This document shows, piece by piece, positions 35,511 through 54,474 of a stretch of DNA of 64,000 nt. The stretch is taken from NCBI GenBank assembly GCA_903908065.1, contig CAIVQO010000098.1:1-64000 (forward strand), in the 5' to 3' direction. A program made the position numbers and the translations under genes. The notes beneath the pieces are model-generated. The model did not search any database. It had not been told where the DNA came from and saw nothing but the letters and a program-made list of their open reading frames with translations. The stretch is from an uncultured beta proteobacterium (GTDB lineage: Bacteria > Pseudomonadota > Gammaproteobacteria > Burkholderiales > Rhodocyclaceae). Position 1 is the stretch's first letter. Each line of letters starts with the position of its first letter.

Positions 35511-38117
35511 TCAGCCGGTTTCGCCCTCGATCCGGTCGGCGTTTCCGCTGAGCAACACGGGGACCGTGGCGCGCTGCATCACGTCGCGGCTGACGCTTCC
35601 CAGCAGGCCGCGCCCGAGTTGGCCCCGGGTATGGCGATAAAGCACGATCAGGTCGGCGCCGTGTTCCGCCGCCGCGGCCAGGATGGCGCCGGCGATGTGG
35701 CCGCCGGCGTGGCGGAACTCCGCATCCACGTTTTCCATCTGCGCGGCGGCGACTGCCAGAGCGGCCTCCTCGGTGATTGATGGTGGCAACTTGCCGTCGC
35801 GATCCGTGACGGAAAACAGCATTACCGGCGTGCGTCCCGGCTTGGCCAGTTGCACGGCGAAATCGAAGGCAGCGCGCGCGGCGGGACTGCCGTCGAAGGC
35901 GACCAGGATGCGGCGCATCCACAGGCTGGCGCCGGGCGGCACCAGCAGAACGCTGCAAGGCGCACTGCCGAGGATGCCCTGAGTCAGGGGATCGAGCGGC
36001 GCCGCGGATTTCGGCTCGCCGCGCCGTTCCAGCACCAGCAGTTGGGCGGCCGCCTCGCGCGCCACGGCTTTGATCTCGGCGGCGGTGTCGCGACCTTCGC
36101 GGCGGTGGAATTCGGTCGGCACGTCGGCCACCATGGCCGCGCGTTGCAGCGCCGCGAGTCGGTCGCCGAAGGACTCGTCGGCTTCGCCCTGGCCGCGTGT
36201 CGCCACCACGTCGAGGGCCACGCCCAGGCGACGGGCGAGGGCGATCGCCGTTGTCGTCGCCGGTCCCGTCGCTTGCCCGGCGTCGGCCGCCAGCATCAGG
36301 CGCAGGCGCCGTTCCCCGTCGGGCAGTCGGCCGGAACTGCAGGCGGCGAAGATGCGCGTGCGGCAGTGGCGGCAGATGTCCGGATCGAGCGTCCAGTAAA
36401 GCGCCTCGGTCGGTTTCGACTTGACGGGGAAGAAGGCCCCTTCGCCGATTTCATGGACGTAGTTTCCCTGGCGCAGCAGGCGCCAGGGCTCTTCCTTGAG
36501 GCGATAGAAATACAGGCCGCCACCCATGCGCTTGCGCCGCCGCGCTTCCTGGGCAAACATTTCGGCACCGGCAACGTCGATGAAGTTCATGCCCAGCGAA
36601 ATCACCAGCACCGATTTCTGGCGCGGGTTGTCGACGTCGATCTGCTGCAGGCTGTTCTGGATGTGGTCCACCGCACCGAAGTAGGCCGAGCCGTTGATGC
36701 GGACCACCCGCAGCTGCGGGCATTCCGGCTTGCCGCGCGCGTCCTCGAAGTGATAGCCCGAGGCGTCCTCTACGGGGACCATCGGTTCGATGCCGGGCTT
36801 CGATGTGCGGTTGAGGTACAGCAGCAGGGAGAGCAGCACGCCGGCGACGATGCCGGCTTCGAGGTTGAGCAGGGTGCCGAGGATGGTCACCCACAGCACG
36901 GCGGATTCCTGGTGGCTGGTGCGCCAGATCGAAGCGATGTGGTGGAAGTCGATCAGGCCCCAGGCGACCAGAAACAGGATGCCGGCCATTGCCGCATGCG
37001 GCAGGTAGGCGGCGAGCGGCGCGACGGCCAGCAGGATCAGCACCAGGAAGCCCGAGGCGAAGATGGTGGCCAGCGGCGTGCGCGCGCCGGCCTCGTAATT
37101 CACCCCGGAGCGATTGAAGGAACCCGACGAGGCATAGCCTGAAAAGAAGGCGCCGGCGATGTTGGACAGGCCCTGGCCGATGAACTCCTGGTTGCCGTCG
37201 ATGCGCTGCTCCGAGCGCACGGCGATGGCGCGGGCAATCGACACTGCCTCGGTGAGCGCCAACATGGTGATCACCAGGGCCGGGACAAAGGTCTTCTTCA
37301 GCGCGGCGAAGGAGAAGTCTGGCAGCGACAGCGGCGGCAGCCCGGCTGGCAGGGCGCCGACGCTGCGGATGCCGGTGGCCTCCTGGCCAAACAGGCTGTT
37401 CAGGGCCACCGCGGCAAGGCTGCCAACCAGCATCGCGGCGATCATGTAGGGGAATTTCTTCCACCAGCGGCGGGTGGCGATGCCCGCGGCCAGCGTGGCG
37501 ATGCCGACGCCGGTGGCCCAGGGGTTGATCCGGTCGAATTGCAGGCCGAACTGGTGCAGTACCTCGTAGAACGGCAGGCCGCGCGCGATCTCGATGCCGA
37601 AGAAATTGCGGATCTGGCTGGCCGCGATCAGCACCGCGGCGCCGGTGGTGAAGCCGATCACCACCGTATGCGAGATGAAGTTCACCAGCGCACCCATGCG
37701 CGCCAGGCCCAGGGCCATCTGGAAGATGCCGACCTGCAGCGTCAGGGTCAGGATCAGGCCCACGTACTGGGGCGTGCCCGGCTCTGCCAGGTGGTGCACG
37801 GCGCCGTAGATGGCGATCGAAATCGCCGTCGTCGGACCGGAGACGAGATGCCAGCTGGAGCCGAACAGGGCGGCCACCACGGCCGGCAACATCGCCGCGT
37901 AGAGGCCGTATTCGGGCGGCAGGCCGGCGATGGTGGCGAAGGCGACGCCCTGCGGCAGGACGATCAGCGCGCCGGTGAGGCCGGCCAGCAAGTCGTCGCG
38001 CAGGCTGTTACGGTTGACCAGTGGCCACCAGCGCAGGAAGGGGAGCAGGCGAATGAGCCAGCCGGTGGTCGGTGTCATGGATTGGGACGGTAGAGGTCCG
38101 GAGGCGGACAGGGGCAT
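35511..38117 (-). CDS. SulP-type anion transporter fused to STAS and two universal stress domains
   Basis: An 868-residue membrane protein. Residues about 20-430 form a SulP/SLC26 transporter (GVAFATIAGLPPEYGLYAA, NIAGAFFSGYASSGSFNRS). A STAS domain follows (about 455-570). A short linker has CRHCRTRIFAAC, a possible metal-binding motif. Two tandem universal stress protein (Usp) domains end it (about 600-725 and 725-868; the last has VAFDGSPAA). Substrate could be bicarbonate, sulfate or another anion. ATG at 38078 is an equally good start. A second SulP gene lies 2.3 kb away on the opposite strand. Confidence 0.87.
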   Translation of the reverse strand: MPLSASGPLPSQSMTPTTGWLIRLLPFLRWWPLVNRNSLRDDLLAGLTGALIVLPQGVAFATIAGLPPEYGLYAAMLPAVVAALFGSSWHLVSGPTTAISIAIYGAVHHLAEPGTPQYVGLILTLTLQVGIFQMALGLARMGALVNFISHTVVIGFTTGAAVLIAASQIRNFFGIEIARGLPFYEVLHQFGLQFDRINPWATGVGIATLAAGIATRRWWKKFPYMIAAMLVGSLAAVALNSLFGQEATGIRSVGALPAGLPPLSLPDFSFAALKKTFVPALVITMLALTEAVSIARAIAVRSEQRIDGNQEFIGQGLSNIAGAFFSGYASSGSFNRSGVNYEAGARTPLATIFASGFLVLILLAVAPLAAYLPHAAMAGILFLVAWGLIDFHHIASIWRTSHQESAVLWVTILGTLLNLEAGIVAGVLLSLLLYLNRTSKPGIEPMVPVEDASGYHFEDARGKPECPQLRVVRINGSAYFGAVDHIQNSLQQIDVDNPRQKSVLVISLGMNFIDVAGAEMFAQEARRRKRMGGGLYFYRLKEEPWRLLRQGNYVHEIGEGAFFPVKSKPTEALYWTLDPDICRHCRTRIFAACSSGRLPDGERRLRLMLAADAGQATGPATTTAIALARRLGVALDVVATRGQGEADESFGDRLAALQRAAMVADVPTEFHRREGRDTAAEIKAVAREAAAQLLVLERRGEPKSAAPLDPLTQGILGSAPCSVLLVPPGASLWMRRILVAFDGSPAARAAFDFAVQLAKPGRTPVMLFSVTDRDGKLPPSITEEAALAVAAAQMENVDAEFRHAGGHIAGAILAAAAEHGADLIVLYRHTRGQLGRGLLGSVSRDVMQRATVPVLLSGNADRIEGETG

Positions 38118-38225
38118 GACGTGAACTTGAATATTAGCAGATGATGATTTTGAATTCGATGCGAAGCCGCGCAGGGCATTGCCTGCCGGGAAGCCGATCC
38201 TAGCGGGACCAGCGTGAAGCCAGCG

Positions 38226-39497
38226 TCAAGATCGGGTGAAGCGCAAATTCGCCGTCGTTCCCCGCGCGGGATCGCTCTCCAGGGCTACCTGCCATCCAAG
38301 GCGGTCGCAGATCCGCTTCACGAGGAACAGGCCAATGCCGCTGCCCTGGCTATCCGCGCCCCGATAGTGGCGCTCGAATACGCGCTGCAGCGCATGATCG
38401 TCCATCCCGCTGCCGCTGTCCCGCACGCTGAGGCCCGTGTGATCCAGTTGCAGGCGTATTTCTCCGTCGCGCGTGTGGGCTACGGCGTTCTGCACCAGAT
38501 TCGTCAGCACCATGGCAAACAAGGCCGGCGGTGCTGGCAGCGGCAGGGAGGGCGGTGACTCGATGCTGAGCCGGGTGTTGCGGGACGCGGCCAGGGGGCG
38601 ATAGCGCTCGACGCATTCCACGGCAAGCCGTGCGCCGTCGCAGCTTTCCGCGTCACTTGCCGGTTCCTCACGGGACAGCGTGAGCAGCGCAGCAGTGAGC
38701 TGTGTCATCTCCTCGGCGGCGCGCTGGATGCGGGCAATCCTTTCGCGCTGGGACGGGTCCAGGCCAGGGTCGTCGGCCAGCACTTCCGCCGCTCCGCTAA
38801 TTACCGCCAGTGGCGTGCGCAGCTCGTGGCTGGCGTCAGCGGCGAAGTTGCGCTCGCGTTCGACAAAAGCGTCCAGCCGTGCGACATAGCGGTCAAAGGC
38901 CCGCGCAAGTTCGTCGATTTCGTCGCCAGAACCGGTTCCGGCAGCGATGCCGGCGAGTTGGGGTGGGCGTTCCGGGGCGGCGCGCGCCACGGCCTGCGCG
39001 AGATCGGAGACGGGCGCGATGACGCGCCCGGCCAACCACCAGCCGCCAAGTGATGCAAGCAGCGTCATCAGGCCGCCAGCCACCAGCAGGTAGGCCAGAA
39101 AGCGTCGCTCGCGATGCCGCTGCCGGGCTTCGTCAAAGAGGACGAGGTAGCGCCGGCCCTCTTTTTCGGCGACGGCCGCCCGCCAGGGCAGGCCGTCCAG
39201 AGTGATCTCGTGCTGCCCCGGCGGCAGCGTGCGCAGCTCCGGAGGCAGGTTGTCGAGCGGGGCATCGGGGCCGGCGTAGTAGCCCCGCAAGCTGGCGGTG
39301 GCCGGCGGCAGCGAAAGGGGATTCCTGGCGCGGCGCGCCATGTAGTCCTCCAGTTCCGCCTTCAGCGTTTGGTCCATCAGGCGTTGCGACACATCGTGGG
39401 CGGCAAACCAGATGCCCACGATCAGCAGCAACCCGAGCGCCGCGCCCATCACGGCGAAGGCAATCGCAACGCGAAGGCGCAGCTTAGGACGCCGCAT
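38226..39497 (-). CDS. Sensor histidine kinase (QseC/PmrB type)
   Basis: A 423-residue membrane kinase. Two transmembrane segments (about residues 10-30 and 145-165) bracket a periplasmic sensor region. HAMP-like sequence precedes the dimerisation domain with DASHELRTPLAVISG, where His is the phosphorylated residue. The ATPase domain ends with DSGSGMDD and GSGIGLFLVK. The start at 39497 overlaps the response regulator by 14 bases; an upstream ATG extends into unconserved sequence. Its signal is unknown. Confidence 0.9.
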   Translation of the reverse strand: MRRPKLRLRVAIAFAVMGAALGLLLIVGIWFAAHDVSQRLMDQTLKAELEDYMARRARNPLSLPPATASLRGYYAGPDAPLDNLPPELRTLPPGQHEITLDGLPWRAAVAEKEGRRYLVLFDEARQRHRERRFLAYLLVAGGLMTLLASLGGWWLAGRVIAPVSDLAQAVARAAPERPPQLAGIAAGTGSGDEIDELARAFDRYVARLDAFVERERNFAADASHELRTPLAVISGAAEVLADDPGLDPSQRERIARIQRAAEEMTQLTAALLTLSREEPASDAESCDGARLAVECVERYRPLAASRNTRLSIESPPSLPLPAPPALFAMVLTNLVQNAVAHTRDGEIRLQLDHTGLSVRDSGSGMDDHALQRVFERHYRGADSQGSGIGLFLVKRICDRLGWQVALESDPARGTTANLRFTRS

Positions 39498-40197
39498 CGC
39501 CGGTTTCGGTGCGAGGTTGGGCGAGTTGCCAACCCAGGCCGCGCAGGGTATGCAGCAGGGGTATCGCGAATGGCTTGTCGATGGCGCTGCGCAGCAGGTG
39601 CAGGTGGCTGCGCAATGCATCCGAATCCGGCGGCCGGTCCTGCCAGACGACCCGCTCCAGTTCCTCGCGGGAGACCACGCGGGGCGAGGCGCGCATTAGG
39701 ACTTCCAGCAAACGCAAAGGAATGGGCGGCAGGGTGATCTCGTGGTCGCCGCGTTGCACGCGCAAGGCCGTGGTATCGAATCGCAGATCGGCCACCACCA
39801 GGACCCGCGGCACCACGTTGGCCCGCGCGCGCCGCACCAGGGCCTGCACGCGCGCGGCGACTTCGCGCATGGCAAAAGGCTTTACCAGATAGTCGTCGGC
39901 GCCGGCCTGGAGCCCGAGTATCTTGTCGTCGAGGGTATCGCGGGCCGTCAGCATCAGTATCGGCGTCGCCTTGCCGAGATCTTCGCGCAGCATCCGGCAA
40001 AGTGCGATTCCATCAATCCCCGGCAGCATCAGGTCGAGCAGGATCAGATCGAAGTCGGTACGGGATGCCAGTTGCAAGCCCCCGATGCCGTTGCCGACGA
40101 TATCGACCAGGTGTCCCTGCGCCGTTAGGTAATCGGCGAGGTTGGCGGCAAGATCGGGATTGTCTTCGACGACGAGGATCTTGAGGCGGGTGTTCAT
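39484..40197 (-). CDS. OmpR-family response regulator
   Basis: A 237-residue regulator. The receiver domain (1-120) has ILVVEDNPDLAANLA and phospho-acceptor Asp in LILLDLMLPG. The winged-helix domain follows (about 130-225, ending LHTLRGLGWQL). It is divergent from the SulP-Ehr block, with 207 bases between the start codons, so it may control that block. A REP-like copy sits 28 bases upstream of its start. Confidence 0.92.
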   Translation of the reverse strand: MNTRLKILVVEDNPDLAANLADYLTAQGHLVDIVGNGIGGLQLASRTDFDLILLDLMLPGIDGIALCRMLREDLGKATPILMLTARDTLDDKILGLQAGADDYLVKPFAMREVAARVQALVRRARANVVPRVLVVADLRFDTTALRVQRGDHEITLPPIPLRLLEVLMRASPRVVSREELERVVWQDRPPDSDALRSHLHLLRSAIDKPFAIPLLHTLRGLGWQLAQPRTETGDAAS

Positions 40198-40224
40198 CCT
40201 CGGATTATCTGCCAGCAAACGAAT

Positions 40225-40246
40225 AGTCGGCGCTGGCGGCACGGTG
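40225..40246 (+). repeat. REP-like repeat copy in the TCS/SulP divergent region
   Basis: AGTCGGCGCTGGCGGCACGG is identical over 20 bases to the copy at 8882-8901. Confidence 0.75.
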
Positions 40247-40404
40247 TTTTGCAAAGGAAGTCGGCATGCTCGCCTTCCGGATGTGCCCGGCGGGATTGGA
40301 AGGGCTGATTGAAGAATAAAAAGCTTGTTGTCGCGCGGGTATTTGGCGCTGTTACCATCCCCTTTTCGTGAAGAGAGCGTGAAGAGCGGAGGTGCCACCT
40401 GCCT

Positions 40405-42567
40405 GTGGCGCAATTCGCCATGCCCGAGATGAGCTTTCCGCCGTTACTGCAACGATTCCTGCCCTTCCTGCGCTGGTTTCCCTATTCCGGCGCCAACCTG
40501 CGCGCCGACTTCCTCGCCGGCCTCACCGTGGCTCTGGTGCTGGTGCCGCAGTCCATGGCCTACGCCCAACTGGCCGGCATGCCGGCCTACTACGGCCTGT
40601 ACGCCGCCTTCCTGCCGGTGGCGGTAGCGGCCCTGTGGGGATCCTCGAACCAGCTCGGCACCGGCCCGGTGGCGGTGGCATCCTTGCTCACGGCCTCCTC
40701 GCTGACGCCGCTGGCGGCGCCGGGTTCGGAAAACTTCATCGCCCTGGCGATCCTGCTGGCACTGCTGGTCGGGGTCATCCAGCTCACGCTGGGGGTATTC
40801 AAACTGGGCGTGGTGGTTAACTTTCTTTCCCATCCAGTGATTGTCGGCTTCACCAATGCGGCTGCCATCATCATTGCCCTGTCGCAGGTGAACAAGCTGA
40901 TCGGCGTGCCCATGGGCCGTTCCGAATCCTTCATTGCCGACATCTGGGGCGTGGCCTTGCTGGTCGGCGATACCCATTGGCCAACCCTGGCGATGGGCGC
41001 GACGGCGATTGCGCTGATCTGGGTGATACGCAAGAAGGCGCCCAGCTTGCCGGGCGTGCTGATTGCCGTGGCGGTGACCACCGTCGCGTCCTGGCAGCTT
41101 GGATTCGAGCGCAATGCCACGGCGACGCTGGAACAGATTGGCGACAGCGAGGCGCAGGCGCTTCTGGTCGAGTTCGTCCGTACCGAAACGCGCATCCGCG
41201 AGATCAACCAGCAGATGCTGGACAAGGGCAATGAGCTCAAGGCGCTGCGCAAGGGTGGAAGCGAGTCGGCGCATGAGGTCGCAACGCTGAACTATGAGAT
41301 CGAATTGCTGCGCCTCCAGTTGAAGGACCGTGAAGACGAGAACCGCCGTCGCAACCGCGCCGTGCGCAGCATCGTCTTCGAGCAGATTGCGGTGGACGGT
41401 GGACCGGTGGCCTACTACGCCAGCGGCCGCCTGCCGGCCGGAGCGAAATCCGATGGTCGCCACTGGCGCATCGCCCGTGCCGCCAGCGGCAGCCTCAAGC
41501 TGACCGGTGGCGGCGAAGTGGTGGGCAAGGTGCCGGAAGGCCTGCCGTCCATCGGCTTGCCCAAGTTCTCGTGGGACATGCTTGGCAGCCTGCTGGGCGC
41601 GGCGATCGTGATTTCGCTGGTTGGCTTCATGGAGGCGATTTCCATCGCCAAGGCGATCGCCGCCAAGACCAAGCAGAAGATCGATCCCAACCAGGAACTG
41701 ATCGGCCAGGGCCTAGCCAATCTGGTGGGGGCGGCAAGCCAGGCCTTTCCGGTTTCGGGCTCATTTTCGCGCTCTGCGGTAAACATCAATGCCGGGGCCA
41801 AGACGGGCATGTCGTCGGTGATCACGGCAGTATTCGTGCTGCTCACCCTGCTCTTCCTTACGCCCCTGCTGTACCACCTGCCGCAGGCGGTGCTGGCGGC
41901 GGTGATCATCATGGCGGTGATCGGCCTAGTGAATTTCGCGGCGGTCAAGCATGCCTGGCAGGCCAATCGCCACGACGGCATCGCTGCGGTGGTGACTTTC
42001 CTGGCGACACTGGCCTTTGCACCCCATCTCGACAAGGGCATCATCGTCGGCGCCGGGCTGGCCATCGGCCTCTACCTCTATCGCACCATGACGCCGCGGG
42101 TGGCCATCCTCGGCCGCCATCCCGACGGCACGCTGCGCGATGCGAAAGTGCATGACCTGCCGCCCTCGAAGGTGGTCACTGCGGTGCGCTTCGACGGCCG
42201 CCTTTATTTTGCCAACGTCGCCTATTTCGAGGACGCCATCCTCGAAGCCGTGGCGGCCAACCCCGAGGCACGCGCGGTGCTCGTGGTGGGCGAGGGCATC
42301 AACGAGATCGATGCCTCGGGCGAGGAGGTGATGCACCACGTGGTGCAGCACCTGCGCGATGCCGGCATCGAGGTGGCCTTTTCCGGGTTGAAGAAGCAGG
42401 TGGTGGATGTCATGCGTGCCACCGGCTTGCTGGCCTTCATCGGCGAGGCGCGCCTCTTCCCCACGGCGGATACCGCGCTGGAAGCGATCCATGCCGAGGC
42501 AGCGGCGCGTGGCGAGGACCATGCCGCCAGCCCGCTGCGTCCCGTGCCGCAGGAGCGCTTTGCCTGA
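40405..42567 (+). CDS. SulP-family anion transporter with a large charged insertion
   Basis: A 720-residue transporter. The SulP core is clear (VPQSMAYAQLAGMPAYYGLYAA, NLVGAASQAFPVSGSFSRS) and a STAS domain ends it (about 570-700). Between the seventh and eighth membrane segments, residues about 232-373 form an unusual insertion. It is rich in Glu, Arg and Gln with heptad-like coiled coil (EFVRTETRIREINQQ, ATLNYEIELLRLQLKDR) and then a small Gly-rich part. By SLC26 topology the insertion should face the periplasm; this is inference. GTG at 40405 or ATG at 40420 may be the start. Six Ehr-type genes follow after about 110 bases. Confidence 0.87.
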   Translation: MAQFAMPEMSFPPLLQRFLPFLRWFPYSGANLRADFLAGLTVALVLVPQSMAYAQLAGMPAYYGLYAAFLPVAVAALWGSSNQLGTGPVAVASLLTASSLTPLAAPGSENFIALAILLALLVGVIQLTLGVFKLGVVVNFLSHPVIVGFTNAAAIIIALSQVNKLIGVPMGRSESFIADIWGVALLVGDTHWPTLAMGATAIALIWVIRKKAPSLPGVLIAVAVTTVASWQLGFERNATATLEQIGDSEAQALLVEFVRTETRIREINQQMLDKGNELKALRKGGSESAHEVATLNYEIELLRLQLKDREDENRRRNRAVRSIVFEQIAVDGGPVAYYASGRLPAGAKSDGRHWRIARAASGSLKLTGGGEVVGKVPEGLPSIGLPKFSWDMLGSLLGAAIVISLVGFMEAISIAKAIAAKTKQKIDPNQELIGQGLANLVGAASQAFPVSGSFSRSAVNINAGAKTGMSSVITAVFVLLTLLFLTPLLYHLPQAVLAAVIIMAVIGLVNFAAVKHAWQANRHDGIAAVVTFLATLAFAPHLDKGIIVGAGLAIGLYLYRTMTPRVAILGRHPDGTLRDAKVHDLPPSKVVTAVRFDGRLYFANVAYFEDAILEAVAANPEARAVLVVGEGINEIDASGEEVMHHVVQHLRDAGIEVAFSGLKKQVVDVMRATGLLAFIGEARLFPTADTALEAIHAEAAARGEDHAASPLRPVPQERFA

Positions 42568-42680
42568 ATCCTTGTGCCCAACAGGGCTATCGAACGTTAA
42601 AATATCAACGATGTATTCAATCTTGCCGCGCCCCCTGATCCGGCCGCAGAACCGGAAGCCGCGTGGCTCCAACTGATCCG

Positions 42681-44690
42681 ATGTCCGGCCTCCTGACCCT
42701 CGACCTGCTGATTCTGGCCGCCTGCGCCTGGCTGGTGACCGGCCTGCTCGGCGTGTTTGCCGGTCGCGCGACCGGCTTCATCGCCGGCCTGCTGTTTCCG
42801 CTGGGTGCGGTGATCGGCATCGGTGTCGGCCTGCTCGGCCTCAATGCGCTGGGTGCGCCAACGCAAACGGCGGTGCTCGCCATCGGACTGCCCGACCTGC
42901 CTTTCCACCTGCGCCTGGACAATCTATCGGCGGTATTCACCCTGTTGCTGGGCTTCGCCGGCGCGGGGATCTCGATCTACGCCGCCGGCTATTTCGCCAA
43001 GGGCGACACACCGGGCCTGGGGCCGCTGTGTTTCGAATACCACGTGTTCCTCGGCAGCATGCTGATGGTGCTGCTGGCCGACGATGCCTATGCCTTCATG
43101 GTGGCCTGGGAATGCATGGCCTTGTCGTCCTTCTTCCTGGTCACCACCGACCACAAGCATGAAGAGATCCGCCGTGCCGGCTTCCTCTACCTGCTGATCG
43201 CCCATATCGGCGCGATCGCCATCCTGCTTTCCTTCGGCGTGATGACCGGTGGCGAGGGCGACTACAACTTCGCCGCAATGCGCACGGTGGAACTGACGCC
43301 GACCTGGACTTCAGCCGCGTTCCTGCTGGCGCTGGCCGGCTTCGGCGCCAAGGCCGGCCTGGTACCCCTGCATGTCTGGCTACCCGAGGCCCACCCGGCG
43401 GCGCCGTCGCCGGTGTCGGCAATGATGTCCGGTGTGATGCTGAAGACGGCGATCTATGGCCTGCTGCGCGTCAGCTTCGACCTGCTGCACACGACGATCT
43501 GGTGGTGGGGCGTGGTCGCCCTGGTCATCGGCCTGCTCACCGCGATTTTCGGCGTGCTCTACAGCACGGTGCAAAGCGACATGAAGCGCCTGCTGGCGTA
43601 TTCCTCGATCGAGAACATTGGCCTGATCGCCGTCGCGATCGGCCTGACCCTGATCTTCCATGCCTATGGCATGGATGCGCTGGCGGCGCTGGCGCTCACC
43701 GCGGTGCTCTACCACTGCCTGGCCCATGCCGGCTTCAAGAGCCTGCTGTTCCTGTGCACCGGCTCGGTGCTGCACGCCACCCATGAGCGCAGCCTTGGCA
43801 AGCTGGGCGGCCTGATCCATCCCATGCCCTGGGTGGCCTGGCTGGCACTGGCCGGCATCATCGCCGGCGCCGGCCTGCCGCCGCTTTCGGGCTTCGTTTC
43901 GGAATGGCTGTTGCTGCAAGGCTTCCTCTTCTCGCCCGGACTGCCGCATCCCTGGCTCAACATGGTGGTGCCGGTGGCGGCCGCGCTGGTGGTGCTGGTG
44001 GCGGCGCTGGCCGGCTTCGCCATGGTCAAGTTCTACGGCATCATCTTCCTTGGCCAGATGCGCGAACCGGCCTTGAAGGACGCCCACGATGCCGGCCCCT
44101 GGGAGCGGGCCGGGCTGGTCTGGCTGGCGCTGATCACGGTGCTGCTCGGCGTGCTGCCCTCGACGGTGATCCTGCGCCTCGATGCCGCGACACAACAACT
44201 GCTGGGTGCCGGCCTCGCCAATACCTTGCAACAGCAAGGCTGGTGGATGCTGGCGCCGATTTCGGCCGAGCGCGCCAGCTACGAGCCGCTGATCGTCCTG
44301 GTGAGCATCGCGGTGACCCTGCTCGCCTCGCGCTGGCTGGTGCGCAGCCTGTTCCACGGCCGCGTACGGCGCAGTTCGCCCTGGGACTGCGGTTACCACT
44401 TCGAGGGGCCGCGCGCCCAGGACACGGCCGAGGGCTTCAGCCAGCCGATCCGCCGCATCTTCGAGCCAATGTTCCGCATGCAGCGCCATTTCCCCGCCGC
44501 CCGCGACAAGCAGCCCTATTACAGCGTCAAGGTCGAGGATCATTTCTGGTACTGGTGCTACCTGCCGATCGCGCGCCTGGCGAACTGGATTTCCGCCATG
44601 ATCGTGGCGCTGCAGGGCGGGCGCATCGCGGTGTACCTGATGTACAGCTTCATCACGCTGCTGTTGCTGCTCCTGGTGGCCAGGCCATGA
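42681..44690 (+). CDS. hyfB: HyfB-like proton-pumping membrane subunit (NuoL/M/N family)
   Basis: A 669-residue antiporter-like subunit with about 14-16 membrane segments. Key charged residues of proton pumping are present: Glu in VAWECMAL, and Lys in GFGAKAGLVPLHVWLPEAHPAAPSPVSAMMSGVMLKTA. The long C-terminal part (after 600) has the soluble tail typical of HyfB. ATG at 42681 is preferred; GTG at 42663 is possible. The start of the next gene overlaps its stop by four bases. Confidence 0.87.
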   Translation: MSGLLTLDLLILAACAWLVTGLLGVFAGRATGFIAGLLFPLGAVIGIGVGLLGLNALGAPTQTAVLAIGLPDLPFHLRLDNLSAVFTLLLGFAGAGISIYAAGYFAKGDTPGLGPLCFEYHVFLGSMLMVLLADDAYAFMVAWECMALSSFFLVTTDHKHEEIRRAGFLYLLIAHIGAIAILLSFGVMTGGEGDYNFAAMRTVELTPTWTSAAFLLALAGFGAKAGLVPLHVWLPEAHPAAPSPVSAMMSGVMLKTAIYGLLRVSFDLLHTTIWWWGVVALVIGLLTAIFGVLYSTVQSDMKRLLAYSSIENIGLIAVAIGLTLIFHAYGMDALAALALTAVLYHCLAHAGFKSLLFLCTGSVLHATHERSLGKLGGLIHPMPWVAWLALAGIIAGAGLPPLSGFVSEWLLLQGFLFSPGLPHPWLNMVVPVAAALVVLVAALAGFAMVKFYGIIFLGQMREPALKDAHDAGPWERAGLVWLALITVLLGVLPSTVILRLDAATQQLLGAGLANTLQQQGWWMLAPISAERASYEPLIVLVSIAVTLLASRWLVRSLFHGRVRRSSPWDCGYHFEGPRAQDTAEGFSQPIRRIFEPMFRMQRHFPAARDKQPYYSVKVEDHFWYWCYLPIARLANWISAMIVALQGGRIAVYLMYSFITLLLLLLVARP

Positions 44691-45640
44691 GTTTTTCCGG
44701 CGCCCTTGCACAACTGTTCGCCATCGCCCTGGCGCTGGTGTTGGCACCGCTGCTTTCGGGCTGGGTCGGCCAGTGCCGCGCCTGGCTGCAAAGCCGCACG
44801 GCGCCGCCGCTGCTGCTGCCCTATTACATGCTGCGCAAGCTGTTCGAAAAGGACGTGGTGCTGGCGCACAACGCCTCCTCGCTGTTTCGCGCCGCGCCCT
44901 TCGTCATCTTCGGTTGCATGCTGCTGGCCTGCGCCATCGTGCCTACCCTGTCGACCGACCTGCCATTTGCCCCGGCGGCCGATGCGCTGGCCCTGGTCGG
45001 CATCTTCGGCCTGGCGCGCATCTTCATCGCCCTGGCCGGCATGGATGTCGGCACGGCCTTTGGCAGCCTCGGCGGGCGGCGTGAGATGCTGGTCGGCTTC
45101 CTCGCCGAACCGGCGCTGCTGATGGTCTTCTTCACCTTGGCGATGATCGCCCAGTCGACTTCGCTGGCGACCATCGTCGAGACCCTGGCCCATCGCGAGC
45201 TGATCATCTATCCCAGCCTGGCCTTCGCCGGCGTTGCCTTCACCTTCGTCTCGCTGGCCGAAAACGCCCGTGTGCCGGTGGACAACCCGGCCACCCACCT
45301 CGAACTGACGATGATCCACGAGGCCATGATCCTCGAATACACCGGCCGCCACCTGGCGCTGATCGAGTGGGCTGCCAGCCTCAAGCTGTATGCCTATTCC
45401 TGCCTTGGCCTGGCCCTGTTCTTCCCCTGGGGCATTGCCCCCGGCGACAACATCCTTGCCCTTGCGGCGGCGATCCCGTTGCTGCTGCTCAAGCTCGCCA
45501 TCGGCGGCTTCCTGCTGGCCGCCATCGAGACGGTGAATGCCAAGATGCGCATCTTCCGCGCGCCTGAATTCCTTGGTACCGCCTTCATGCTGGCGGTACT
45601 TGGCCTGTTGGTGAGGCTGTTGCTGGAGGTGAAGGTATGA
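44687..45640 (+). CDS. hyfC: HyfC-like membrane subunit (NuoH family)
   Basis: A 317-residue membrane protein with about eight segments. It matches NuoH/HyfC: LLPYYMLRKLFEKDVV, a cytosolic loop with glutamates, and AENARVPVDNPATHLELTMIHEAM in the middle. In complex I the equivalent subunit links the redox module with the pumping module. ATGA overlap with hyfB shows tight coupling. A 115-base gap with a palindrome follows. Confidence 0.87.
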   Translation: MSFSGALAQLFAIALALVLAPLLSGWVGQCRAWLQSRTAPPLLLPYYMLRKLFEKDVVLAHNASSLFRAAPFVIFGCMLLACAIVPTLSTDLPFAPAADALALVGIFGLARIFIALAGMDVGTAFGSLGGRREMLVGFLAEPALLMVFFTLAMIAQSTSLATIVETLAHRELIIYPSLAFAGVAFTFVSLAENARVPVDNPATHLELTMIHEAMILEYTGRHLALIEWAASLKLYAYSCLGLALFFPWGIAPGDNILALAAAIPLLLLKLAIGGFLLAAIETVNAKMRIFRAPEFLGTAFMLAVLGLLVRLLLEVKV

Positions 45641-45755
45641 CCACCTATCCCCCGGCCCCTTTCCCGTGGAAAGGGGTGACTTCGGTTCAGTCGCGCGTTG
45701 CGCGAGTTCCGGTCGATGGCTCGCTGCCTCCTTGGGGCGGCCCTACGGAGGCAGC
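45641..45755 (+). repeat. Palindromic intergenic element inside the Ehr operon
   Basis: This is the only sizeable gap in an otherwise overlapping operon. It holds CCCCTTTCC-CGT-GGAAAGGGG at 45656-45676, a perfect 9-bp hairpin, and GCGCGTTGCGCG nearby. The pattern of GC-rich palindromes suggests an inserted mobile palindromic element or an RNA-processing site. Its family was not identified. Confidence 0.55.
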
Positions 45756-46424
45756 ATGAACGCCGCGATCCCCCTGTCCGCCCAGCTGATTAACCTGTTC
45801 GCGGCCGTCATCCTGCTGCTGGCCTTCGCCATGCTGGCGCAGCGCCGCATGCTGTCGCTGGTCAACCTGTTTGCCGCGCAGGGCTTCTGCCTGTTCCTGG
45901 CGACGCTCACCGCCGCCGTGACCACCGGGCAGAGCCACCTGTTCTATTCGGCAGGGCTGACGCTGCTGCTGAAGGTGATCGCCCTGCCCTGGATCCTTTA
46001 CCGCCTGGTGCGCCAGCTCAACATCAAGGGCGAGGTCGAAGCCCTGATCAACATTCCCACCACCATGCTGGTCGGCATCGTGCTGGTGATGGCGGCCTTC
46101 AATGTCGCGCTGCCAATTTCCGAGTTGTCGCACACCATCACCCGCGGCACCCTGGGCATTGCGCTCGCCGTGGTGATGCTGGCCTTCCTGATGATGATCA
46201 CGCGGCAGAAGGCGATCAGCCAGGTGGTCGGATTCCTTTCCATGGAAAACGGCCTGTTCCTTGCCGCGACCAGCGCCACCTACGGCATGCCCATGGTGGT
46301 CGAACTCGGCATCGCGCTCGATGTGCTGGTCGGCATGATCATCCTCGGCGTGTTCTTCTTCCAGATCCGCGACCAGTTTGACAGCCTGGACATCCGCCAC
46401 ATGGAAAAACTGAAAGACAACTGA
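45756..46424 (+). CDS. hyfE: HyfE-like membrane subunit
   Basis: A 222-residue membrane protein with about seven segments, matching HyfE (NuoK-like N-terminal half). The last part, DQFDSLDIRHMEKLKDN, is a short soluble tail. ATG at 45756 has GGAGG eight bases upstream. HyfF starts five bases after its stop. Confidence 0.83.
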   Translation: MNAAIPLSAQLINLFAAVILLLAFAMLAQRRMLSLVNLFAAQGFCLFLATLTAAVTTGQSHLFYSAGLTLLLKVIALPWILYRLVRQLNIKGEVEALINIPTTMLVGIVLVMAAFNVALPISELSHTITRGTLGIALAVVMLAFLMMITRQKAISQVVGFLSMENGLFLAATSATYGMPMVVELGIALDVLVGMIILGVFFFQIRDQFDSLDIRHMEKLKDN

Positions 46425-46428
46425 GGCG

Positions 46429-47880
46429 ATGGACTTCTTCATCCTCATGCTCGCGATTCCCCTCGTCAGCGGTGCGCTGCTGACGGTGGTGGGCGAGCGC
46501 GACTGGGCGCCGAACCTGAATGTCGTTGCCAGCCTCGGCACTTTCCTCGCGGCCGTTGGCCTTACCGCCGAGATCGTCGCCAACGGGCCGCGCTTCGCCT
46601 TCGGCGAGCAGTTCTTCATCGACTCGCTGAACGTGTTCTTCGTCAGCCTGACGGCATTCGTCGGCCTCACCACCAGCATTTTCTCCGGCCCCTACATGCG
46701 CAACGAGCGTGATCGCGGGCGCCTTTCCAAGCCACGCCTGCGCCTCTACAAGAGCATGTACCAGCTCTTCATGTTCACCATGCTGGCGGCGCTGACCACC
46801 AACAACCTCGGCATCCTCTGGGTGGCGATGGAAGCGGCGACGCTGACCACGGTGCTGCTGGTTTCGCTCTACCGCACGCCGGCCAGCCTGGAAGCCGCCT
46901 GGAAGTACTTCATCCTCTGCGGCGTTGGCATTGCCCAGGCGCTGTTCGGCACCGTGCTGCTCTACTTCGCCGCCGAGCGCGTGCTCGGCGCCGCCGGCAA
47001 TGCCCTGCTGTGGACCCACCTGGTCGACGTCAAGGCCCAGCTCGAACCGACCATCATGGCGCTGTCCTTCATTTTCCTGCTGGTCGGCTACGGCACCAAG
47101 GTCGGCCTGGCGCCCTTGCACAACTGGCTGCCCGACGCCCACGCCGAAGGCCCGACGCCGGTGTCGGCGGTGCTCTCCGGCCTGCTGCTGAACGTTGCCC
47201 TGTACGCCATCCTGCGCTGCAAGGTGCTCGCCGACGGCGCGCTGCCGGAGGGCTACGCCGGCCAGCTGATGATCGGCTTCGGACTATTCACGCTGCTGGT
47301 CGCGGCCTTCTTCCTGTCGCGGCAGAAGGACGTCAAGCGCATGTTCGCCTACTCGTCGATCGAGCACATGGGCCTGATCACCTTCGCCTTCGGCATGGGC
47401 GGGCCGATCGCCAACTTCGCCGGCCTGCTGCACATGACCATGCATTCGCTGACCAAGTCGGCGATCTTCTTCGCCGTTGGCCATGCCACGCAGAAGACCG
47501 ACACCCAGCTCATGGAGCAGATCCGCGGTCTGATCCGCATCAACCCGCTGATCGGCTGGGGACTGATGCTGGGCACCCTGGCCATCCTCGGCATGCCGCC
47601 CTTCGGTGTCTTTGCTAGCGAGTTCATGATCCTGACCCACGCCATGAAGCACTACCCCTGGGCGATCCCCATCCTGCTGCTGGCGCTGGGGGTGGCCTTC
47701 GCTTCGATCTTCGGCAAGGTGCAGCCCATGGTCTTCGGCGAGACCACGGCCAAGCGCCTGCCGCACGCGCCGGCGATCACCCCGGTGTTCCTGCATCTCG
47801 GGCTGGTGCTGATGTTGGGCCTTTACATTCCCCCTTACCTGACGCGCTGGTTCCACGAAGCCGCGCGCATGCTGGGCTAG
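46429..47880 (+). CDS. hyfF: HyfF-like proton-pumping membrane subunit
   Basis: A 483-residue antiporter-like subunit of the NuoL/M/N family. The pump residues are visible: Glu in VAMEAATL, Lys in GYGTKVGLAPLHNWLPDAHAEGPTPVSAVLSG. It ends three bases before the next gene. With hyfB it gives the complex two antiporter-like subunits. Confidence 0.88.
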   Translation: MDFFILMLAIPLVSGALLTVVGERDWAPNLNVVASLGTFLAAVGLTAEIVANGPRFAFGEQFFIDSLNVFFVSLTAFVGLTTSIFSGPYMRNERDRGRLSKPRLRLYKSMYQLFMFTMLAALTTNNLGILWVAMEAATLTTVLLVSLYRTPASLEAAWKYFILCGVGIAQALFGTVLLYFAAERVLGAAGNALLWTHLVDVKAQLEPTIMALSFIFLLVGYGTKVGLAPLHNWLPDAHAEGPTPVSAVLSGLLLNVALYAILRCKVLADGALPEGYAGQLMIGFGLFTLLVAAFFLSRQKDVKRMFAYSSIEHMGLITFAFGMGGPIANFAGLLHMTMHSLTKSAIFFAVGHATQKTDTQLMEQIRGLIRINPLIGWGLMLGTLAILGMPPFGVFASEFMILTHAMKHYPWAIPILLLALGVAFASIFGKVQPMVFGETTAKRLPHAPAITPVFLHLGLVLMLGLYIPPYLTRWFHEAARMLG

Positions 47881-47883
47881 GCC

Positions 47884-49446
47884 ATGCAGCTCTGTTCCTT
47901 CCCCGCCATCGACTTCAACCGCCAGCCGGGTGTCGGCGCACCGGTGTGGCGCGGCCGGGCGGCGAACGGCGACGAGTTGCACTCCTTCGCCCGGGCCGCC
48001 CGGGAAGTCGGCGCCCGCATTACGGCGATCTGGGGCAGCGACCGTCGCGCCCAGGGCCAGGGTTACCGGCTGCAATGCGTGTTCGGCATCGAGTCCGGCC
48101 ACGCCTGGCTGAGCCTTGACCTGCCGGCCGAGGCGCCGAGCTATCCCGACCTGGCCGACCTCTTCAGTACCGCCAACCGCATGCAGCGCGCCACGCGCGA
48201 CATGGTCGGCATCGCCACTATCGGCGGCGACCAGCGCCCCTGGCTGCGCCACGGCGGCTGGCCGGAGGGCTGGTATCCGCTGCGCCACGACGCTGGCGAG
48301 CCGCCGACGTTCCAGAACCGGCCGACCGACTACGAGTTCGTCCAGGTCGGCGGCGAGGGCGCGCATGAGATCCCGGTCGGCCCCATCCATGCTGGCATCA
48401 TCGAGCCGGGCCACTTCCGCTTTTCGGTGGTCGGCGAACGCGTGCTCAAGCTGGAGCAGCGCCTTGGCTACCAGCACAAGGGCGTTGAACGGCTGTTCGT
48501 CGGCGCTGACTTTGCGCGCGGTGCGCAGCTCGTCGGCCGTGTTTCCGGCGATTCGAGCTGCGCCTATGCCTGGGCTTACGCCGACGCCGTCGAGGCCGCC
48601 TGCGAAACTGCCGCGCCGCCGCGCGCGCTGGCCCTGCGCGCCCTGATGCTGGAGCGCGAACGCGTCGCCAACCACCTCGGCGACCTCGGTGCGCTGGGCA
48701 ACGACGCCGCCTTCGCCTTCGGCCTGACCCAGTTCCTGCGCCTCAAGGAGGACTGGGTGCGGCTCAACGCCCGGCTCTTCGGCCATCGCTTCCTGTTCGA
48801 TCGCATCGTGCCCGGCGGCGTCGCCGTCGACGTCGACGCGGCTGGCCTGGCCGCCATCGTCGAGCAATGCGGCGCGATCGAAACTGCGGTAAAGGAATTG
48901 CGCGGGCTCTACGACGAACATCCCGGCCTGCAGGATCGCTTCGTCACCACAGGCATCATTGATCGCGACCTGGCGCAGGAGTTGTCGCTCTCCGGCTTGG
49001 CGGCGCGTGCTACCGGTATGCTGCTCGACGGCCGCGCCCATCGCCAGGGCTACACCCCGCCCCCGCCCTATATGGCACTGGGCGTGCGTCCGGCCACCGA
49101 CGAGCGCGGCGACGTCGCCGCGCGCGTCGCGGTGCGCTTCGACGAAATTTTCGAATCCCTGCGCCTGTTGCGCTTGCTGGCGGTCGACCTGCCGGGCGGC
49201 GCACTGCGCGTCGAGGTCGCCCCGGTAGCCGGCGGTGCGGGCCTTGGCGTGATCGAAGGCTGGCGCGGCGAGGTTGCAGTCGGGGTCGAGATCGATGCCG
49301 CAGGCCGGCTGGCGCGGGTCCATCCCCATGATCCCTCGTGGCAGGCTTGGCCGGCGCTGGAGTTTGCCGTGCTGCGCGACATCGTTCCCGACTTCCCGCT
49401 GATCAACAAGTCCTTCAACCTGTCCTATTCGGGGGTAGACCTGTGA
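47884..49446 (+). CDS. HyfG-like large subunit without NiFe-binding cysteines (Ehr type)
   Basis: A 520-residue protein related to NuoCD and the group 4 hydrogenase large subunit. In hydrogenases the first motif is RxCGxC; here it reads GRVSGDSSC, with Ser in place of both cysteines. The second motif DPCxxC is replaced by DPSWQAW. All four Ni ligands are therefore lost, so H2 chemistry is very unlikely. GPIHAGIIEPGHF is conserved. This is the pattern of Ehr (energy-converting hydrogenase-related) complexes, whose substrate is unknown. The small subunit overlaps its stop. Confidence 0.85.
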   Translation: MQLCSFPAIDFNRQPGVGAPVWRGRAANGDELHSFARAAREVGARITAIWGSDRRAQGQGYRLQCVFGIESGHAWLSLDLPAEAPSYPDLADLFSTANRMQRATRDMVGIATIGGDQRPWLRHGGWPEGWYPLRHDAGEPPTFQNRPTDYEFVQVGGEGAHEIPVGPIHAGIIEPGHFRFSVVGERVLKLEQRLGYQHKGVERLFVGADFARGAQLVGRVSGDSSCAYAWAYADAVEAACETAAPPRALALRALMLERERVANHLGDLGALGNDAAFAFGLTQFLRLKEDWVRLNARLFGHRFLFDRIVPGGVAVDVDAAGLAAIVEQCGAIETAVKELRGLYDEHPGLQDRFVTTGIIDRDLAQELSLSGLAARATGMLLDGRAHRQGYTPPPPYMALGVRPATDERGDVAARVAVRFDEIFESLRLLRLLAVDLPGGALRVEVAPVAGGAGLGVIEGWRGEVAVGVEIDAAGRLARVHPHDPSWQAWPALEFAVLRDIVPDFPLINKSFNLSYSGVDL

Positions 49447-49955
49447 TCCCCTTGCTGCGCCACATCTTTCGCACCGGCATCCTGACCGAGCCGCTGCAAG
49501 CCCCGGACGAGGGCCCGCAACGCGAGCTTGAGCGCCTGCACGATGAACTGCTTGGCATCCTTGGCCGTGCCCTGACCATCCGCGAAGTCGATGCCGGCTC
49601 GTGCAATGCCTGCGAGCTGGAAGTGCATGCGATGAATAATCCCTATTACAACCTCGAAGGGCGCGGCATCAAGTTCGTCGCCAGTCCGCGCCATGCCGAC
49701 ATGCTGCTGGTCAGCGGGCCGGTGACCAAGAACATGGAAAACGCGCTGTTGCGCGCTTACGAATGCACGCCCGATCCCAAGCTGGTAGTGGCGATCGGCG
49801 ACTGCGGTTGCGATGCCGGCGTGTTCGGCAAGAGCTACGCCAGCTGCGGCGCGATCAGCGACGTGTTGCCAGTCGATGTGCGGGTGCCCGGCTGCCCGCC
49901 GACCCCGTTGGCGATGATGCAGGGAATCCTCGCCGCAGTGCGCCAGGCGAAGTAG
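49443..49955 (+). CDS. hyfI: HyfI/NuoB-like iron-sulfur small subunit
   Basis: A 170-residue subunit with ligands for one [4Fe-4S] cluster: DAGSCNACELE, GDCGCDAG and the closing VPGCPPTP. It corresponds to NuoB/HyfI, which holds the cluster nearest the catalytic site. GTG at 49443 overlaps the previous stop (GTGA). Thus the iron-sulfur site is kept although the NiFe site is lost. No HyfA/HyfH ferredoxin-like subunit is nearby. A repeat hairpin follows. Confidence 0.87.
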   Translation: MIPLLRHIFRTGILTEPLQAPDEGPQRELERLHDELLGILGRALTIREVDAGSCNACELEVHAMNNPYYNLEGRGIKFVASPRHADMLLVSGPVTKNMENALLRAYECTPDPKLVVAIGDCGCDAGVFGKSYASCGAISDVLPVDVRVPGCPPTPLAMMQGILAAVRQAK

Positions 49956-53069: not shown

Positions 53070-53321
53070 GTGCGGGATCTTCCGAAAATAAGCCGACTGA
53101 TTATAGACAGCGGAAATTGGAGGCCATGGCAGATGCCGGCAGAAATACAGCTTCTGTTTGTGTAGTAGGAAATCTACTGCCTTATCGATCTGGCCGCAAT
53201 TGAATCGGCTTTGCCCTATGGATGCCGATCAACTCGATTCCTAAACTGCAATCGTACGCGGAAGGAAATGATCGCCATTCCCTGTTCCGTCCGTCCGATA
53301 CCAGCACAGGAGTTAGTTGCC
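53070..53321. promoter_or_regulatory. Divergent region between the sensor kinase and pilE
   Basis: No gene is seen. AGTAG-GAAAT-CTACT (53164-53178) is a perfect 5-bp inverted repeat that could be an operator. A TGGCAG...GGCA element near 53125 resembles a sigma-54 promoter, but its GG-GC spacing is one base short, so PilR control of pilE was not confirmed from sequence. CAGGAG lies 10-15 bases before the pilE ATG. Confidence 0.45.
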
Positions 53322-53762
53322 ATGTCATTCAAGCTGCGCGCCAACCGGGGTTTCACGTTGATCGAAATCATGGTGGTCGTTCTGATCATCGGCGCACTTG
53401 CGGCGATTGCCGTACCCCAATACGACGCCTACATTGCGCGCGGACGCATTGCCGAAGGAATTTCCATGCTTTCCGAATTGCAGGTGCGCCAGGAGCAGTA
53501 TTACCAGGACAATAGGGCCTACGTCAGTGGCATGACGCCGCGCACTACCGGGCAGTACTGGACCGCGACCTGTACTACCGCGAATGCCAACCAGACCTTT
53601 ACCTGCACGGCTACGCCGGCGGCCACCTCGGGCCTTGGCTATGTCTTTACCGTCGATCAGTCTGGTGCCAAGACGACTGCGGCGACGGCGACCCCGGTGT
53701 CGGGCTGGACTGTTCCCTCCCCGGCAACCTGCTGGGTTAAGACCAAGGCGGGAACTTGCTGA
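53322..53762 (+). CDS. pilE: PilE-like type IV pilin
   Basis: A 146-residue type IV pilin. The prepilin peptidase site is ANRG|FTLIEIMVVV with Glu at +5, followed by the usual hydrophobic helix. After it come a soluble alpha-beta domain and C-terminal cysteines (CTTANANQTFTC and CWVKTKAGTC) that may form the D-loop disulfide. The TQ-like QYYQDNRAYV stretch is common in PilE/minor pilin PilE of betaproteobacteria. It is the first gene of the pilus operon. Confidence 0.9.
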   Translation: MSFKLRANRGFTLIEIMVVVLIIGALAAIAVPQYDAYIARGRIAEGISMLSELQVRQEQYYQDNRAYVSGMTPRTTGQYWTATCTTANANQTFTCTATPAATSGLGYVFTVDQSGAKTTAATATPVSGWTVPSPATCWVKTKAGTC

Positions 53763-54460
53763 TGCGCCCACGCGGCTTCAGCCTGATCGAAATGCTGCTG
53801 GTGGTGGCTATCGCCGGCATCATTTTGGCGATTGCCGTTCCCTCATTCCAGGAAACTTTGGTGAATAGCCGCTCGCGGGGTGTCGCCGAGTCGATACAGT
53901 TCGGCTTGATCAAGGCGCGTTCGGATGCGATCAACCGCAATGCCCCGATGCGGTTTCAACTGGTCAGTAACCTGGATGCAAGCTGCACAGCCAGTTCTAC
54001 TTCGCGCTTGTGGGTGGTTACGCAGTACACCGGCCTCACTTCACCGGCAAACACCCGAGGGGTTCCTGCCGGTGCCTGCAATGTTGCGGCCTATGTGCCT
54101 CCGGATCAGGAGGAACCCTGTCCAGCCTCTCCTGCCTATACAGTAAATACGTCGGCCACCCCGCCCACGGCCGCAAGTTGTGTGACCGATCCTTTCATTG
54201 CCTACAAGAGTCCGGCAGACCGGGTGCCGGACATCAATGTCACCGCGACGCCGACCATGGGAACCCCTGCCGGCTTTATTGTTACCTTTGGCGCGCTCGG
54301 GCAACTGCTGGCCAACCTCGAAGGTGCGGTGCCCGCGGGCTCGCCCGCGTATTCGGTATTGATTGCTCCCGCCACCGGGGTTACCGGCCGTAGCTACTGC
54401 GTGCAGGTCAATTCCAATGGCACCACCCGGATGTGCACCTCGGCCTGCCCCTGCGCATAG
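53762..54460 (+). CDS. fimT: FimT/GspH-like minor pseudopilin
   Basis: A 232-residue minor pilin. The prepilin site is MRPRG|FSLIEMLLVV with Glu at +5. The soluble part has a FimT/GspH-like beta-rich domain with paired cysteines (SYCVQVNSNGTTRMCTSACPC). The ATG shares one base with the pilE stop (TGATG), so translation is coupled. It probably helps initiate pilus assembly or bind DNA. Confidence 0.87.
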   Translation: MRPRGFSLIEMLLVVAIAGIILAIAVPSFQETLVNSRSRGVAESIQFGLIKARSDAINRNAPMRFQLVSNLDASCTASSTSRLWVVTQYTGLTSPANTRGVPAGACNVAAYVPPDQEEPCPASPAYTVNTSATPPTAASCVTDPFIAYKSPADRVPDINVTATPTMGTPAGFIVTFGALGQLLANLEGAVPAGSPAYSVLIAPATGVTGRSYCVQVNSNGTTRMCTSACPCA

Positions 54461-54474
54461 AGCGGAACGACGCC

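Follow-up and report, generated by a model that had tools for sequence, protein, structure and literature searches.

What does a complex made of hydrogenase parts do once its metal site is gone? The question is raised by an operon in a 64,000-nucleotide stretch of DNA (the window; positions 1 to 64,000 of contig CAIVQO010000098.1, assembly GCA_903908065.1) from an uncultured beta proteobacterium of the Rhodocyclaceae, with a 3.84 Mb genome of the genus Sulfuritalea. Six intact open reading frames (ORFs), all on the plus strand (42681-49955), form a HyfBCEFGI-like operon, in agreement with a preliminary description of the window. From its sequence we assign it to the Ehr complexes, in which complex-I-like subunits are encoded in one operon, the NiFe ligands are missing and the proximal cluster is kept. 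Ehr complexes are already known as a kind; it is their genomic context that is new here. Their function or advantage has been called unknown (PMC10284858, PMC4378227, PMC10432482; literature statements here and below draw on excerpts of the papers cited), in accord with the description's remark that the driving reaction is unknown for the group, and a cytoplasmic redox reaction coupled to charge movement has been suspected (PMC6349859). Since a gene for a SulP transporter lies directly upstream, a role in inorganic-carbon uptake becomes testable. On genomic grounds we propose, giving the idea about an even chance, that Ehr here serves the accumulation of CO2 or bicarbonate as a redox-driven ion pump.

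The large subunit and its former NiFe site

A profile of the large subunit G matches HycE of E. coli formate hydrogenlyase best (7z0s_E, E 2.8e-88), followed by MbhL and then Nqo4, and Foldseek with a model of G returns the same chain first (TM 0.87); the best solved relatives of B and C are 7z0s_C and 7z0s_D of the same enzyme. Motif equivalence was taken from a profile of 12 large subunits aligned to solved chains. RVCGICG of HycE faces RVSGDSS of G, the replacement of RxCGxC that had been described. The second replacement, DPSWQAW for DPCxxC, had been misplaced: DPSWQAW faces RAATYANWP of HycE, and also 'RAPSF' of Thermus Nqo4, and it is NLSYSG that faces DPCYSC, an alignment shared by a true hydrogenase (L036). 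The conclusion of that description stands, as all four NiFe cysteines are gone from the predicted G protein of the window and no NiFe site remains.

The four places were compared in 88 large subunits (a set that omits L108, with a frame break, and the partial L049, L113 and L123; later alignments also omit L006 and L009). Residue 221 is Ser in 75, Cys in 8 and Ala in 5; residue 224 is Ser in 81 and Thr in 7; residue 514 is Ser in 76, Ala in 7, Asn in 3, Cys in 1 and another residue in 1; residue 517 is Gly in 86 and Ala in 1, with one gap. Cys occurs at neither 224 nor 517, and the sole sequence with Cys514 (L078) has Ala at 221, so that no sequence of the 88 retains more than one of the four NiFe cysteines. 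D223, N508, K509, S510, N512 and Y515 are invariant, and G shows no set of Cys conserved across the 88 sequences. The first Cys of the motif is retained (RxCGDS) in some Lysobacterales and other gammaproteobacteria (L098, L105, L114, L118). Because the motif is conserved in 88 sequences, it is not a sequencing error. Nor was a second large subunit found on the window contig; further large subunits of the NiFe-hydrogenase family lie on contigs C10, C21 and C54.

G ends at SYSGVDL, its frame stopping at residue 520, three residues past the motif. The match reaches the query end in 134 of 139 loci, and all 134 stop at residue 520 with no C-terminal extension. The operon thus carries RVSGDS and NLSYSG where a group 4 [NiFe] hydrogenase has RxCGxC and DPCxxC. 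It also differs from respiratory complex I: the places of Thermus His38 and Tyr87, which we take to be the quinone ligands of NuoD, hold I173 and L216 in G (Ile in 88/88, Leu in 83/88; columns counted by hand), no NADH module (NuoEFG) is seen among the annotated ORFs of 35511-49955, and the next downstream ORF is on the opposite strand. In Acidithiobacillus such complexes have been annotated as hydrogen-evolving hydrogenases or formate hydrogenlyases, and the same has been suggested for Geobacter; for the present complex we regard this as very improbable. Fold and composition would fit, and Ehr subunits of Geobacter sulfurreducens are more abundant with formate (PMC7894505), but the cysteine losses and the missing extension speak against it, and hyfBCEFGI of A. 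ferrooxidans is classed as non-hydrogenase by HydDB and was undetected on H2 (PMC7735108).

dN/dS of G is 0.11-0.25 in five within-genus pairs. Given this constraint and the conserved motifs, we consider G a maintained protein with a rebuilt site and not a decayed hydrogenase. Geobacter Ehr has been termed nonfunctional (PMC13194489); conservation at the sequence level argues against that label for the lineage of the window. An AlphaFold model of G (47 sequences) has a mean pLDDT of 83.1, with values below 50 over nearly all of residues 149-196 and over 499-520. This is the former active-site region, so the model shows no cavity there.

The small subunit keeps its proximal iron-sulfur ligands, as had been described: Cys 54, 57 and 121 are present in 89/89 sequences and Cys 151 in 88/88. 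The statement that proton-pump residues are kept holds for most of them. The glutamates and lysines that we take to be the pump residues are nearly invariant within the family, both in B (E144 71/72, K224 72/72, E408 72/72) and in F (E135, K224 and E398, all 82/82). Against solved chains, E144 and E408 of B face glutamates of HycC, and E135 and K224 of F face E and K of MbhH; the exceptions are K224 of B, which faces a leucine of HycC, and E398 of F, which faces a lysine of MbhH.

Table 1. Features of the window around the Ehr operon, with the matches that identify them
Feature	Positions	Strand	Basis
SulP2, second SulP, C-terminal fusion to Usp domains	35511..38117	-	PF00916 8.9e-96, PF00582 5.8e-32
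Histidine kinase and response regulator, divergent from SulP1	38226..40413	-	annotation of window ORFs
SulP1, SulP-family anion transporter with STAS domain	40405..42567	+	PF00916 3.1e-105, PF01740 6.6e-14
Ehr subunit B, HyfB/HycC-like, antiporter-like	42681..44690	+	ATG at 42681; NF005086 3.6e-262, over cut-off; 7z0s_C 1.3e-55
Ehr subunit C, HyfC/HycD/NuoH-like	44687..45640	+	PF00146 1.6e-33; 7z0s_D 8e-35
Ehr subunit E, HyfE-like	45756..46424	+	NF008556 7.9e-25, below cut-off
Ehr subunit F, HyfF-like, antiporter-like	46429..47880	+	NF005045 1.9e-259, over cut-off
Ehr large subunit G, NuoC+NuoD fusion, HycE/HyfG-like	47884..49446	+	PF00346 1.1e-25, PF00329 1.5e-09
RVSGDS, G residues 219-224, in place of RxCGxC	48538..48555	+	HycE alignment; D223 88/88
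DPSWQAW, G residues 483-489, a stretch other than DPCxxC	49330..49350	+	faces HycE RAATYANWP
NLSYSG, G residues 512-517, true place of DPCxxC	49417..49434	+	HycE alignment; N512 and Y515 88/88
Ehr small subunit I, HyfI/NuoB-like	49443..49955	+	PF01058 6.1e-29; MbhJ 6.7e-36, HycG 7.9e-35

NCBIfam names B and F 'hydrogenase 4 subunit B' and 'hydrogenase 4 subunit F'; its name for E is 'hydrogenase 4 membrane subunit'. The genes are separated by a few bases or overlap, except for 113 bp between SulP1 and B and 115 bp before E. A promoter and terminator scan gave no signal above chance. Kinase/regulator pairs like that of the window are seen again at several SulP-Ehr loci, and whether the pair is part of the system is uncertain. 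The PF00916 match of SulP1 is broken in two by an insert of about 130-150 residues (41119-41562), partly coiled-coil-like by eye, and the Usp domains of SulP2 are two matched stretches at its C-terminus. Downstream of the operon lie type IV pilin-like ORFs (53211-55961, by eye).

Transporters, carbonic anhydrases and RuBisCO beside Ehr

The neighbourhood of Ehr was surveyed in the best 80 named loci from one scan of genome contigs, together with stretches from further relatives. Neighbourhood counts use the 84 of 139 loci with both flanks and tree-placed counts 62 of 88 rows, short-flank loci being omitted; all ten query proteins derive from Ehr loci. The loci are not independent: many come from one genus, and one locus, retrieved as both L043 and L046, counts double in the 84. 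The 40 control stretches came from 15 of these genomes and were set at fixed fractions along long contigs, or by hand on shorter ones. A SulP gene is found in 22/84 Ehr stretches versus 0/40 controls, in 21/83 after dropping the duplicate, and in 17/77 also without six loci chosen for RuBisCO on the contig. Among tree-placed loci, 14/62 have a same-strand SulP upstream of Ehr, which takes at least six changes on the Ehr tree. SulP types differ between sister Thiobacillus loci (L051 and L052 versus L055), and two Ehr types with G 56-57% identical both stand behind SulP1 in the genus of the window. Many loci hold the bare six genes only. A separate set of 20 loci, mostly of other classes, contains one SulP upstream of B (L151, 15796-17529), and at this distant-class locus a kinase/regulator pair is divergent from SulP as in the window. 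At several loci of the window's family a CitMHS/DASS-type transporter gene lies between SulP and Ehr (L167, 16902-18842; L168, L043/L046, L045).

Carbonic anhydrase genes, too, are linked to Ehr in some relatives. A 186-residue hexapeptide protein is encoded between SulP and B in L055, L086, L167 and L168, directly after SulP2 in the first and overlapping or abutting B in the others. Among solved structures it matches gamma-carbonic anhydrases best (dGCA1, then what we take to be the 1thj group), followed by CcmM-type proteins, and in alignment to them it retains the Arg, Asp, Gln and three His that are presumably catalytic. This gamma-carbonic anhydrase is present in 32/205 genomes of the order, of which 14 belong to the 62 Ehr genomes defined below (how many of the 62 fall within the 205-genome draw is uncertain). 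In 8/14, from four families (G044, G059, G074, G086, G117, G154, G166, G193), it shares contig and strand with Ehr and lies 5.1-11.7 kb upstream of G; in the remaining six, all draft genomes, it and Ehr are on different contigs. SulP2 relatives adjoin it in other loci, and the same family occurs between CbbO and CbbQ in G067 and L051. A 352-residue protein beside Ehr in L027, L052, L165, L167, L169 and L223 resembles the carboxysome shell carbonic anhydrase CsoSCA weakly but consistently (TIGR02701 1.4e-9 to 9.9e-12, below cut-off, three tested; PF20686 over cut-off, one tested). Moreover, Form I-type RuBisCO with CbbQ/O is encoded within about 8 kb of Ehr in L027, L051, L055 and L165, and cbbM-cbbQ-cbbO directly follows I in Thiomonas L104. 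The RuBisCO-family gene of the window's own genome is on another contig.

The most telling context is an exchange with DAB. In G059 (L215) a cassette SulP2-gamma-carbonic anhydrase-SulP1 is followed by BCEFGI, and in G128 and G222 (L218, L219) DabB-like and DabA genes, with further antiporter-like genes, come after the same cassette; the gaps after SulP1, measured from the first possible start codon, are 61, 60 and 43 bp, respectively. G128 and G222 are of one genus (g77) and G059 of another family; in G193, of the same genus as G128 and G222, Ehr lies downstream of a related cassette. DabA also stands beside Ehr in Accumulibacter L080. This exchange, together with the Ehr-specific invariant polar residues, would also fit an enzyme in which the former NiFe cavity of G is the site of CO2 hydration, driven through the antiporter-like subunits by a proton gradient as in DAB, with the cluster merely structural. 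We consider this improbable, since some loci encode separate carbonic anhydrases alongside, G has no conserved Cys set, and a structural-only cluster is an extra assumption.

Weighing a role in carbon accumulation

In the mechanism that we propose, SulP1 and BCEFGI would form a module for inorganic-carbon uptake and retention, with Ehr as a complex-I-like ion pump. A soluble carrier would hand electrons to the single [4Fe-4S] cluster of subunit I, and the electrons would leave at the rebuilt cavity of G, for which E174, R219, D223, D267, N508, K509, N512 and Y515 are candidate residues. Their flow would drive H+ (or Na+) outward through C, B and F. The pump could remove the protons released by carbonic-anhydrase CO2 hydration, or it could set up the ion gradient with which SulP imports bicarbonate; bicarbonate would thereby accumulate for carboxylation. 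The named residues may line one cavity and the proteins may be in physical contact. We infer carbon as the substrate, the specificity of SulP, the donor, the acceptor and the direction of flow. The idea of an electron drive comes from the invariant cluster and from established knowledge of complex I and NDH-1MS; of the two halves of the proposal, the carbon link has the stronger support.

Genome-wide co-occurrence was counted among 250 genomes of the order. Ehr was assigned to 62, that is 67 matches minus five at E ~1e-81 to 1e-86 (G028, G156, G188, G201, G218), of which G028 has the cysteines of a real hydrogenase; RuBisCO was assigned to 93 (108 family matches minus 15 RuBisCO-like ones at about 220 bits or lower). 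RuBisCO is present in 45/62 Ehr genomes versus 48/188 others (odds ratio (OR) 7.7). We rejected this association as proof of a carbon role, since NifH, SoxY and NiFe hydrogenase associate with Ehr too. When only the 93 genomes with RuBisCO are counted, Ehr and DabA show some mutual avoidance (OR 0.40, p 0.05), a result too weak to build on.

Several observations weigh against a role in carbon accumulation. RuBisCO is absent from 17/62 Ehr genomes, and Ehr co-occurs with NifH (OR 9.1), SoxY (4.8) and NiFe hydrogenase (4.7) about as strongly as with RuBisCO, so that co-occurrence mainly tracks lifestyle; DabA shows no co-occurrence with Ehr (OR 0.98). None of the ten query proteins is found in the fetched stretch of 60/84 loci, and heterotrophs carry a bare Ehr operon. 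Five annotated plasmid regions with Ehr (Burkholderia, two Rhizobium, Variovorax and a methanotroph, from 61 plasmid records matched) contain no annotated SulP, anhydrase or RuBisCO, plasmid annotation being incomplete and a sixth region unannotated. The DAB exchange occurs in one genus only (two genomes), and several linked loci are close kin (L027 and L165 of one genus, L167 and L168 likewise). The window's own genome has no match for the gamma-carbonic anhydrase or the CsoSCA-like protein. Near the second type of Ehr seen in L030 is a pyruvate:ferredoxin oxidoreductase-type gene, and this points rather to a redox role. As for SulP1, the solved structure nearest to it is that of a plant sulfate transporter, and 6ki1, the cyanobacterial structure that we take to be BicA, matches far more weakly; the window SulP scores 141.5 bits against a BicA NCBIfam cut-off of 880. 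Its substrate, as far as its sequence goes, is not readable here.

The last point invites the view that SulP1 carries sulfate and that Ehr supplies the energy with which sulfur oxidisers move sulfate or sulfite. The solved match in question is chloroplast sulfate transporter 4.1, and the SoxY association and a TauE-type gene by Ehr in L217 point the same way. We hold this to be quite unlikely, however, as it leaves the gamma-carbonic anhydrase, CsoSCA-like protein, RuBisCO and DAB neighbours unexplained.

Many of the other points would fit a general redox ion pump, for example a ferredoxin:quinone oxidoreductase, or a complex run in reverse that provides nitrogen fixation or autotrophy with low-potential electrons. 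SulP and carbonic anhydrase would then adjoin Ehr merely as low-CO2 lithotrophs keep such genes together. The invariant cluster ligands, the bare operons of heterotrophs, the NifH association and the oxidoreductase-type gene in L030 argue for it, as do a pyridine-nucleotide-disulphide oxidoreductase near Ehr in four loci and a related complex in Variovorax with 4Fe-4S domains fused to its NuoB-type subunit. We nevertheless judge it rather unlikely, since Ehr is repeatedly linked to SulP, to carbonic anhydrases of two kinds and to cbb genes, and is exchanged with DAB; furthermore, no ferredoxin-type gene is found among the annotated recurrent neighbour clusters, which are about half of those listed. 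The Variovorax complex is a second Ehr-like operon in tandem on a plasmid (L126, 1-5434). Another Ehr-like operon also occurs in some same-genus genomes (L028, 131-7435; L030, 1216-8775), with G about 45-47% identical to that of the window.

We retain the proposal of a carbon-accumulating pump. What is observed is the gene content, the loss of NiFe ligands, cluster cysteines that do not vary and pump-type residues most of which do not either. G is under purifying selection, a minority of relatives have transporter, anhydrase and RuBisCO genes linked to Ehr, and DAB is found behind the same cassette in one genus.

Other neighbours recur as well. A spermidine-synthase-like gene lies near Ehr, in heterotrophs too (L066, L055, L059, L062, L064, L069, L074, L079, L082, L087, L102, L126, L129, L130); together with MetG and ScpA it was set aside as a functional lead. 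ORFs of 335 and 341 residues by Ehr in L080 and L108 have no Pfam match and look like spurious frames. A small-gene family lies upstream of B in 11 loci of other classes (L134, L135, L137, L139-L143, L145, L159, L160); the two tested are helix-turn-helix regulators (L140, with a cupin domain, and L137).

Ehr among known complexes

Hints of a carbon link can be found in Acidithiobacillus. In A. caldus one hyf cluster adjoins a beta-carbonic anhydrase and another lies with carbon-fixation genes (PMC3826726), a remark that is the only stated link of Ehr or Hyf to carbon uptake found in a part of the open-licence literature. The genes AFE2149-54 of A. ferrooxidans have been called a group 4 hydrogenase (PMC2621215) and AFE_2155 is cbbM (PMC6458275); to judge by the tags, they would be neighbours if both papers use one numbering. 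The words 'hydrogenase' and 'hyf' are absent from the main text of a minireview of the inorganic-carbon toolkit (PMC10880623). Rescue of carbonic-anhydrase-free E. coli, already applied to DAB-type complexes and SulP transporters (PMC12628692), offers a test of the proposed role. In the excerpts cited above no function is established for Ehr of ammonia-oxidising archaea, comammox Nitrospira, Sulfobacillus or Geobacter. If the proposal is true, it would give Ehr complexes a first function, explain one lineage and name its partner genes, and a hydrogenase scaffold would have been turned to carbon concentration.

The closest solved B, C and G come from E. coli formate hydrogenlyase-1/hydrogenase-4 (7z0s), which shares the fused NuoC-NuoD large subunit; unlike it, the window operon lacks the NiFe cysteines and has no HyfH- or HyfA-type ferredoxin subunit, and presumably it has an extra antiporter-like subunit, F, relative to Hyc. 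Known Ehr complexes likewise combine group-4-type subunits, a large subunit without NiFe cysteines and a kept small-subunit cluster, whereas links to SulP, gamma-carbonic anhydrase or DAB are not mentioned in the literature excerpts at hand. DAB stands behind the same cassette in genus g77 but, to our knowledge, has no NuoD- or NuoB-type subunits. DAB2 has the zinc beta-carbonic-anhydrase-like DabA (PMC13144422), for which (PF10070) the window genome has no match at E 1e-30. The hyf clusters of A. caldus and A. ferrooxidans are alike by description, being hyf-type and near carbonic anhydrase or cbb genes, but were read by their authors as hydrogen-evolving hydrogenases (PMC3826726, PMC2621215). 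NDH-1MS (CupA) is similar in its proposed mode, redox-driven pumping that pulls CO2 hydration (PMC6981117), while the Ehr large subunit is hydrogenase-type, not NdhH-type, and its carbonic anhydrases are separate.

It is tempting to suggest, with slightly less than even confidence, that Ehr is a third complex-I-derived carbon-concentrating machine beside NDH-1MS and DAB, derived from hydrogenase-4, redox-driven, interchangeable with DAB and partnered by SulP and gamma-carbonic anhydrase. Its range, equally tentative, would be chemolithoautotrophic Betaproteobacteria and possibly Acidithiobacillus. Such a machine would resemble the cyanobacterial NDH-1MS in its working and DAB in its task, with the parts of hydrogenase-4.

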